In this document: piece after piece, positions 1,664-30,931 of the stretch | Layout of the letters: each line of letters begins with the position of its first letter | Position numbering within the stretch: the stretch's first letter is position 1 | Assembly (NCBI GenBank): GCA_945903545.1 | Contig: CAMDOO010000024.1 | Location: 1 to 40,241, forward strand | Reading direction: 5' to 3' | Length of the DNA stretch: 40,241 bases | DNA from: Opitutus sp. GAS368 | GTDB lineage: Bacteria; Verrucomicrobiota; Verrucomicrobiia; Opitutales; Opitutaceae | Made by a program: the position numbers and the translations under genes | Notes under the pieces: model-generated | The model's input: only the letters and a program-made list of their open reading frames with translations | Database searches by the model: none | What the model was told of the DNA's origin: nothing

Positions 1664-1688
1664 GGCGGTCACGGAGTGACCGCCCTAC
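1664..1688 (-). repeat. GTAG-headed hairpin repeat (REP-like), copy 1
   Basis: Read on the minus strand this begins GTAGG at 1688 and contains a perfect 9-bp stem GGCGGTCAC / GTGACCGCC around a TCC loop (1664-1684). It ends five bases from the ahcY stop codon. An almost identical copy lies at 17592-17617 on the other strand. Confidence 0.7.
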
Positions 1689-16883: not shown

Positions 16884-16938
16884 CCAATCCGGATCGGGAT
16901 CATCGCGGCGGTTTAAGCATAAATCACCCTGTCTGAGC

Positions 16939-17481
16939 CTACTCCAGTCCCAGCTTCCGGCGGCCGGCCTCGGAGATCATGTGCGGGGTCCAGATCGGGT
17001 CCCACACGATGTGCACCTTGGCGGCGGCCACACCCGGGAGGGCCGCGACCTTTTGCCGGGCATCCTCCGCGATCACCGGGCCCATGCCGCAGCCGGGGGC
17101 GGTCAGGGTCATCTTGATTTCCACCGCATTGCGGCCGGCCCCGTCGGACTCAATGGCCAGGTCGTACACGAGTCCAAGGTCGACGATGTTCACCGGGATC
17201 TCCGGATCGAACACCGCGCGCAGCGCCTCCCAAACATTCGCCTCGCTGAACTCCCCGGCCGGAGCCGCGGCCGTGGCGGCCGCGGCCACCGGGATATAAC
17301 CCTCGATCGCCCCGGCATCCGATCCGGCGATGCGGTACAGGCCATCCGCGGCGCGTACCGTGACACTGCCGCCGAGGGCCTGCACGACCGTCACCTCCGA
17401 ACCGGCGGGCAAATCCACCGTCGTTCCGGCGGGGATCATGGTGGCCGGGCAGGCCCGGGAAAGACGGTGGGTTTGATTCAT
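16939..17481 (-). CDS. sufT: SufT-like Fe-S cluster assembly protein (DUF59/MIP18 family)
   Basis: Likely helps mature iron-sulfur proteins. The C-terminal half is a MIP18/DUF59 domain with DPEIPVNIVDLGLVYDL and LTAPGCGMGP, which contains the conserved reactive cysteine. The N-terminal half (IPAGTTVDLPAGSEVTVVQALGG) is the extra domain that marks the longer SufT proteins. The ATG at 17481 (MNQTHRLSRACPAT) gives 180 aa; an open extension back to 17526 looks non-native. No other suf genes are next to it. It converges with the Dus gene. Confidence 0.85.
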   Translation of the reverse strand: MNQTHRLSRACPATMIPAGTTVDLPAGSEVTVVQALGGSVTVRAADGLYRIAGSDAGAIEGYIPVAAAATAAAPAGEFSEANVWEALRAVFDPEIPVNIVDLGLVYDLAIESDGAGRNAVEIKMTLTAPGCGMGPVIAEDARQKVAALPGVAAAKVHIVWDPIWTPHMISEAGRRKLGLE

Positions 17482-17534: not shown

Positions 17535-17712
17535 ACTTTAACCGCGGATTACGCAGATGGCGCGGATGAAGACAGGCTAAGCCCGATCCAGGTAGGGCGA
17601 GTCACTCCGTGACCGCCGAGGTCGGATTCGGGAGACCGGCGCCAACGGAGTCGACGCCCCATCGGGACGGCCTTGTTGCATCTGCGTCATGTGCGACATC
17701 TGCGGTGAAGTT
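17535..17712. repeat. Modular CGCAGATG-type inverted repeat enclosing a REP-like element
   Basis: The left arm (about 17540-17573) reads CGCGGATTA, CGCAGATGG, CGCGGATGA. The right arm (about 17680-17712) reads as the reverse complement series CATCTGCGTCATGTGCGACATCTGCGG. A GTAG-headed hairpin (17592-17617) lies between them. The whole 284-base gap between sppA and the SufT-like gene is built of such elements and I see no gene in it. Confidence 0.55.
17592..17617 (+). repeat. GTAG-headed hairpin repeat (REP-like), copy 2
   Basis: Same element as at 1664-1688 but on the plus strand: GTAGGGCG, one extra A, then GTCAC-TCC-GTGAC and CGCC. The shared stem GTCAC/GTGAC and loop TCC are unchanged. 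Confidence 0.7.
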
Positions 17713-23492: not shown

Positions 23493-23540
23493 GGGCGACA
23501 GGCGGCAGGGCTGGTCGACGACCCGGCCATGATAGATTCG

Positions 23541-23573
23541 ATCATCGCGGTCGCCTCGTCGAGGCAACCCTAC
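23541..23573 (-). repeat. GTAG-headed hairpin repeat (REP-like), copy 3
   Basis: On the minus strand GTAGG (23573) is followed by a 10-bp stem GGTTGCCTCG / CGAGGCGACC around a single A, then GCGATGAT. It fills most of the 90-base gap between convergent accA and the phosphoesterase gene. It matches 30899-30931 at 31 of 33 positions, and the two differences form one swapped base pair in the stem. Confidence 0.75.
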
Positions 23574-26310: not shown

Positions 26311-26338
26311 AGGCCCGGCGCACACGCCGGGCCTTTTT
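26311..26338 (+). terminator. Rho-independent terminator after ilvB
   Basis: A perfect 10-bp stem AGGCCCGGCG / CGCCGGGCCT (26311-26320, 26325-26334) with loop CACA is followed by TTTTG. It lies 21 bases after the ilvB stop and shows that ilvB ends its transcript without a small-subunit gene. Confidence 0.93.
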
Positions 26339-26399: not shown

Positions 26400-26428
26400 C
26401 AGGGCCAAAATCCGGCCACCCGCCCTAC
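26400..26428 (-). repeat. Degenerate GTAG-headed repeat
   Basis: On the minus strand GTAGGGCGGGT (26428) is followed by GGCC-GGATTTT-GGCC. Only a 4-bp stem is left, so this is a weak relative of the better copies. It lies eight bases beyond the stop of the LysM gene. Confidence 0.3.
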
Positions 26429-30843: not shown

Positions 30844-30867
30844 GTAGCCGGCCTCGCGACGGCCGGC
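30844..30867 (+). repeat. GTAG-headed hairpin repeat (REP-like), copy 4
   Basis: Plus strand: GTAG at 30844-30847, then GCCGGCC ... GGCCGGC (30847-30853 with 30861-30867, loop TCGCGAC). With the oppositely oriented copy at 30899-30931 it forms an inverted pair in the gap between prfB and the ATP-grasp-like gene. Confidence 0.6.
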
Positions 30868-30898
30868 GGATCGGACCGCCCGGCGACAGACCACAGGC

Positions 30899-30931
30899 AT
30901 CATCGCGGCCGCCTCGTCGAGGCAGCCCTAC
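30899..30931 (-). repeat. GTAG-headed hairpin repeat (REP-like), copy 5
   Basis: Minus strand: GTAGG at 30931, stem GGCTGCCTCG / CGAGGCGGCC around one A, then GCGATGAT. It is the same element as 23541-23573 with a C-G pair in place of T-A at the third stem position. Confidence 0.75.

Follow-up and report, generated by a model that had tools for sequence, protein, structure and literature searches.

GTAG-headed hairpin repeats and their flanked RAYT genes in an uncultured member of the Opitutaceae

Repeat copies in the analyzed window

The stretch of DNA analyzed here (the window; 40,241 nucleotides) is contig C24 of the genome of an uncultured member of the Opitutaceae (G000; 3,083,619 bases in 122 contigs). 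The accA of this genome is most similar to records from Opitutaceae and Opitutae (identity of up to 79%) in a collection of named records from which near-identical entries may be missing. Direct inspection of the sequence confirmed the letters and coordinates of the repeats reported in an initial annotation, which had listed five hairpins headed by GTAG together. All five are indeed GTAG hairpins, but they do not form a single family, being divided instead between class A (23541 and 30899), class B (1664 and 17592), and class E (30844). Two further copies in the window, at 23505-23533 (plus strand) and 17638-17661 (minus strand), had been missed. The class names A to F are labels of our own and not published family names. 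Class A is represented by GTAGGGYTG with the tail GCGATNAT, class B by GTAGGGCG with a CTCCG loop region, and class E by the pair GTAGCTGGCCTCG / GTAGCCGGGGTCG, while class C begins with GTAGGGGCGCGTGTCCCC; further classes of GTAG hairpin in a 440-kb sample of the genome were D, F, and a GTAGGAGC type. The window harbors the following features.

1664..1688, minus strand: class B REP with a perfect nine-pair stem (direct sequence and GTAG-hairpin scan)
17592..17617, plus strand: class B REP with one additional stem base (by eye against the 1664 copy)
17638..17661, minus strand: decayed class B partner of the 17592 copy (by eye)
23505..23533, plus strand: decayed class A partner opposite the 23541 copy (weak match, 19.5 bits, E 0.006)
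23541..23573, minus strand: intact class A REP of the T-A subfamily (56.5 bits; included among the model rows)
26400..26428, minus strand: probably what is left of a class A pair that has collapsed (in G002 the same gap contains such a pair in intact form)
30844..30867, plus strand: partly decayed class E REP (28 of 32 letters, spacer included, in common with L126:12257)
30868..30898, no strand: spacer and, tentatively, the decayed second half of a class E pair
30899..30931, minus strand: intact class A REP with GTAG head, nine-pair stem, three-base loop, and GCGATGAT tail

The 30899 copy scored 57.5 bits against the class A covariance model (R1), but is itself one of the 21 rows of that model. 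According to a crude gene caller it falls within a minus-strand frame of 567 residues that gave no Pfam match; in G001 and G002, two genomes of the same genus, conservation of this frame ends ahead of the 30899 stretch. The 30844 and 30899 copies face each other, as had been described; because they belong to different classes (E and A, respectively), they do not, however, constitute the one mosaic element that had been proposed. Since the 30844 copy corresponds to one half (the first) of a class E pair together with its spacer, the partner to be expected for it is the decayed stretch ahead of 30899, which has a GGATCGGA spacer like that of L126:12257 and whose remainder was judged by eye. Neither 30844 nor 26400 was among the class A model matches in the window at E ≤ 10. 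The latter, formerly listed as a weak sixth copy, is probably the remnant of a pair that is intact in the sister species G002.

Five copies identical to that at 23541 occur among 31 genome pattern matches (see below). The region of the 17592 and 17638 pair (about window positions 17581-17668) has composite matches in G001, and a separate, terminator-like hairpin adjoins the 1664 copy at 1618-1643. At 16899-16942, GTAGG is separated from CGCGATGAT by 30 bases, in which no hairpin could be made out; this model match (16.3 bits), attributable to chance or to a remnant, was excluded from the counts.

Abundance, fold, and genomic arrangement

A genome-wide covariance search of the kind that had been recommended for these repeats, in which 150 candidates were scored, returned at least 151 class A matches at E ≤ 1, a high copy number of the kind by which GTAG-tagged REPs are recognized, as is the unpaired GTAG head found immediately 5′ of a short hairpin. 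The pattern GTAGGG-(4 to 30)-CCGCGATGAT matched the genome 31 times, against none when reversed, and a version with a looser tail matched 46 times, again against none. Within the 440-kb sample, which comprised the window and bases 1001-21000 of contigs 1-20, the class A model had 25 matches at E ≤ 0.024, corresponding to approximately 175 if scaled to the genome. An excess over chance was also apparent in this sample for strong hairpins following GTAG, of which there were 63, compared with 3 to 16 following nine other tetramers and 0, 0, and 0 in three Markov-1 simulations; at a looser hairpin threshold, the corresponding values were 82 for GTAG and 13 to 45 for the comparison. A scan of all tetramers returned GTAG 59 times (3.6 expected) and TAGG, which is GTAG shifted by one base, 34 times (1.7 expected), with AAAA being likewise enriched (39 versus 3.7 expected).

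The class A fold was assessed from the 28 of 31 pattern matches that are 33 bases long (the three longer ones were omitted), which yielded 21 distinct rows. These copies were chosen without reference to the fold, the middle being left free in the pattern search, while stem pairs 5-25 and 6-24 were fixed by the search pattern itself. The nine-pair stem was formed in 96.8% of cells, and six of the nine pairs were changed on both sides (36 cells), so that further copies do carry paired stem changes of the kind that had been sought. The covariation score of 0.554 was reached by none of 500 shuffles, and slid versions of the alignment attained at most 0.134; two weaker measures were matched by shuffles, namely, the number of pairs with changes on both sides (26 of 500) and that of further pair types (55 of 500). 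A U-G pair was present at columns 8-22 in 16 of the 21 copies. For class C, the aligned copies were picked on the basis of their hairpins and one row is out of register, and the counts from this alignment are thus only supportive.

This covariation across 21 distinct copies is better evidence for the fold than the single difference on which the initial annotation relied. The copies at 23541-23573 and 30899-30931 do match at 31 of 33 bases, with both differences falling in one stem pair (T-A versus C-G), but the change is not the direct evidence of a selected fold that it was taken to be. Instead, it separates two subfamilies (7 and 14 of the 21 distinct copies) and for that reason carries little weight, which illustrates that, in the presence of subfamilies, one paired stem difference between two copies says little about whether a fold is selected.

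With respect to arrangement, 19 of 22 pairs of neighboring copies within 260 bases of one another had their heads pointing outward, the inverted-pair layout of BIMEs and REPINs, while two were in tandem and one pair had its heads inward. Twelve of the 75 hairpins in this survey were unlabeled by the class patterns, several of them being class B by eye and some probably due to chance. The copies were mostly extragenic: 54 of the 75 lay outside called genes and 21 inside, though the simple codon-usage caller employed, which also places 30899 inside a frame, assigned 90% of the sample to coding sequence. Among copies with genes on both sides, 23 of 53 were situated between convergent genes, compared to 44 of 238 gaps overall.

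RAYT genes and the distribution of class A

RAYTs are REP-associated tyrosine transposases, which are HUH enzymes. Six matches to the RAYT model NF047646, for which the curated cut-off is 80 bits, were identified in the genome.

C46: RAYT, 95.1 bits, above the cut-off, flanked by GTAGGAGC repeats
C18: RAYT, 85.9 bits, above the cut-off, flanked by GTAGGAGC repeats
C86: RAYT, 85.5 to 87.3 bits, above the cut-off, flanked by class A
C26: RAYT, 84.3 to 85.3 bits, above the cut-off, flanked by class C
C83: RAYT, 69.3 to 71.8 bits, below the cut-off, flanked by class B
C44: longer Y1 protein, 49.5 bits, below the cut-off, flanked by GGGGTTG inverted repeats

PF01797 alone had retrieved three genes in this genome, none of which was flanked by class A, B, or C. 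The reading to which this gave rise, that classes A to C are without a transposase here, was overturned by the NF047646 matches.

A RAYT gene bordered by the same repeat as the class A copies of the window, which the initial annotation had suggested be looked for, was thus found in C86, where GTAGGGTTGGGCCGCTGGCCCGACCGCGA (class A) lies on both sides in the same orientation, the upstream copy being cut by the contig end. A second such arrangement, which is that of a REPtron, is present in G002, whose RAYT (C34, 88.7 bits) has on each side the first 26 letters of the 30899 copy (window 30931..30906). The class A RAYT of C86 (151 residues) retains both the His-X-His motif and the tyrosine, and its sole relative of solved structure is TnpArep (PDB 4er8; E 1.6e-6). 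The downstream class B repeat of C83 overlaps the end of the frame, and one class C repeat of C26 overlaps the uncertain start of its frame. As read from draft contigs, the class B RAYT (L275:1441-1911) has Ser where the catalytic Tyr is expected, and the class C RAYT (L271:1486-2034) has Arg in place of the first His of HxH; REPs of both classes are still numerous.

REPs of the GTAGGAGC type flank the C18 and C46 RAYTs (L165:3830-4611 and L166:1821-2503) and occur elsewhere in the genome. By manual count, the repeat flanking C46, GTAGGAGCCTGCTTGCAGGCGAT, differs at 2 of 23 letters from Pseudomonas PF4 as given in the passages compared from PMC3686654, and transfer from another lineage is possible for this type, which is close to Pseudomonas fluorescens REPs. 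The inverted repeats around the longer Y1 protein of C44 (L164:1920-3345) resemble those of TIR-flanked transposases described in a portion of PMC3733652.

None of the six NF047646 matches in this genome is flanked by class D, E, or F; RAYTs bordered by repeats resembling class E do occur elsewhere in the family. Among 30 RAYT loci fetched from other genera of the family, a GTAG hairpin was present within 400 bases in 26 (on both sides in 20, on one side in 6, and on neither in 4), with 10 of the 30 bearing GTAGGGCG and 6 bearing GTAGCCGGGGTCG repeats. Of 252 genomes examined in the family, 197 gave RAYT matches at E ≤ 1e-15, 138 of them over the cut-off. In G001, the assembly of which is about 92% complete, no short RAYT was found, the only relative being a longer protein that, at 63.3 bits, did not reach the cut-off.

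High numbers of class A copies were confined to this genus. When 125 candidates were scored in each of 57 genomes, the three belonging to the genus had at least 126, at least 118 (G001), and at least 93 matches, compared with 0 to 2 in the other 54. Across the family, with 28 candidates scored per genome, 19 of 252 genomes had a class A match at E ≤ 1e-4, those outside the genus having one to three each; in one of them, G087, a class A match lies approximately 90 bases from a RAYT.

Individual sites were compared between sister species. Both flanks were located in 12 of 18 comparisons, a GTAG-type element or variant being present at six and absent from six. A second set of 24 comparisons was reduced to 22 by dropping L351:8564 and L172:1920 as likely chance hairpins, with one site (L127:17796 / L316:1068) counted twice; a perfect REP was in place in 8, and some of the other 14 had imperfect REPs. 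Where the element is missing, the alignment is also lost over tens of bases in the flanks, leaving no clean empty site, and insertion and deletion are therefore indistinguishable there. The accA-ymdB gap contains a class A pair in G000 (one member decayed), a class B pair in G001, and, in G002, a class A copy whose stem is different.

Probable mode of spread of the repeats and possible replacement of their stems

The initial proposal that the window repeats are REPs of the RAYT kind is borne out by their many copies, mostly extragenic positions, inverted pairs, and class-matched RAYTs in the same genome. It is very probable that they have spread as passengers of RAYTs, with classes A, B, and C each having a flanked RAYT of its own, a reading that draws on the observed copy number, covariation, pairing, RAYT flanking, and sister-species differences. 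By analogy with the systems treated in passages of PMC8266576, the RAYT would act on single-stranded DNA, where it would recognize the folded repeat together with its GTAG head, cut beside the repeat, and rejoin it elsewhere. New copies would come to lie mainly in intergenic positions, in many cases as inverted pairs whose heads point outward, and would later decay. Cutting and joining by these particular RAYTs, as well as recent activity of class A, are likewise presumed. Counting against this proposal are the richness of G001 in class A, despite its lack of a detectable short RAYT; the class B RAYT, which falls below the cut-off with Ser for Tyr; the class C RAYT, with Arg for His; the lack of a flanked RAYT for classes D, E, and F in this genome; and the fact that absent sites are not clean. 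Persistence of REPs after RAYT loss has been reported in the part of PMC3686654 considered, and such persistence would fit the pattern of G001 and of classes B to F.

It is most unlikely that the hairpins are instead transcription terminators or RNA elements that are kept for their effect on neighboring genes and are not products of mobility. The frequency of copies between convergent genes would be in line with such a role, and the covariation is compatible with a functional fold; against this, terminator scans returned no site at 1664, 17592, 23505-23573, 26400-26428, or 30844-30931 (sites were predicted nearby at 1618-1643 and 26311-26334), and such a role would account neither for the conservation of an unpaired GTAG head nor for the flanking of RAYTs. 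Intrinsic terminators, in which a G+C-rich hairpin is followed by a T run, were considered and rejected, there being no T runs at the window copies, and the window gave no Rfam match at the gathering score. Similarly remote is the prospect that the repeats are REPs of which class A was moved by another enzyme, either the GTAGGAGC-type RAYTs of C18 and C46 or the longer Y1 protein of C44. G001, in which class A is plentiful and the only protein found is of the long type, would suit such an enzyme, but C18 and C46 are flanked by their own repeats and C44 by unrelated ones, and G000 and G002 both encode a RAYT with class A on each side.

A further alternative concerns how stems change and is compatible with REP identity. 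The paired changes may reflect hairpin-templated repair or copying off other REPs and not selection on the fold, an explanation that is a credible contender, albeit not the favored one. At L127:15589, the flanks match G001 on both sides, while the G001 hairpin differs and has an ATAG head, with three stem pairs altered in both partners and a fourth in just one; this G001 hairpin is identical to one elsewhere in G000 and so belongs to an existing subfamily. At two sites where the element is clearly kept in both species, L127:17796 and L033:414, stem changes are one-sided. Set against these observations, few sites were compared, and the need of the RAYT for a fold would yield the same overall covariation. 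Taken together, the block change at L127:15589 and the one-sided changes at kept sites indicate that block replacement may explain some of the paired changes. We accordingly entertain, as a speculative proposal, that the hairpin of an occupied REP site can be rewritten as a block through conversion or RAYT strand exchange, with flanks and tail kept and the stem taken from another subfamily. L127:15589 is the best case for such rewriting, with stepwise change, or several insertions into the same site, as possible alternatives. Were it true, many "compensatory" differences would represent copy replacement. L025:1501 is a further site with fairly tight flanks and different stems between species, while accA-ymdB, L128:11301, and L347:13337 are other candidates with loose flanks.

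Returning to the REP/RAYT assignment, several families of GTAG REPs have been reported in Opitutus terrae (Verrucomicrobia), a species described as especially rich in such repeats (Di Nocera et al. 2013, PMC3733652). In the sections of that paper compared, the REPs are like those described here in having a GTAG head on a 6- to 13-bp stem, in forming inverted dimers, in lying downstream of genes and between convergent genes, in showing alternative complementary stem residues within families, and in comprising several families, each with its own RAYT, in one species. The present host belongs to another genus of the same family. In the passages compared from PMC3686654, RAYTs of Pseudomonas and Stenotrophomonas are tied, as here, to a cognate REP class, with several classes per genome, and nothing resembling classes A to C was encountered. 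The Escherichia coli TnpAREP (PDB 4er8; PMC8266576, in part), to which the class A RAYT matches, has a GTAG head and hairpin in common with class A, but E. coli REPs have a bulged stem, whereas class A stems are near perfect and closer to the group 3 REPs of that source. Literature searches joining Opitutaceae with REPIN, or "Opitutus terrae" with "repetitive extragenic palindromic," retrieved no paper from the collection searched, that for Verrucomicrobia and RAYT found PMC3733652 alone, and a search of PMC6006769 for Verrucomicrobia and Opitutus gave no occurrence.

The system is thus of a familiar, ordinary kind, though represented with unusual completeness in a little-studied bacterial group, with the possible block replacement of stems as the one point of wider interest. 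A 3.1-Mb genome of a poorly studied lineage encodes five short RAYTs, and each of the genes is bordered by the REP type proper to it. In two of the five a catalytic residue seems to have been replaced, with REPs of the corresponding types still present, and two congeners are available for comparison. It represents a natural series for how REP specificity follows the RAYT and for the fate of REPs upon decay of the enzyme.

Two sites had further peculiarities. At L127:15560-15640, a REP lies between complementary flanks (TCTTTCTCCCGATC / GATCGGGAGAAAGA), as if within a larger palindrome, and in the REP pair shared between L033:414-486 and L350 of G001, one of the G001 hairpins has a 39-base insertion in its stem.
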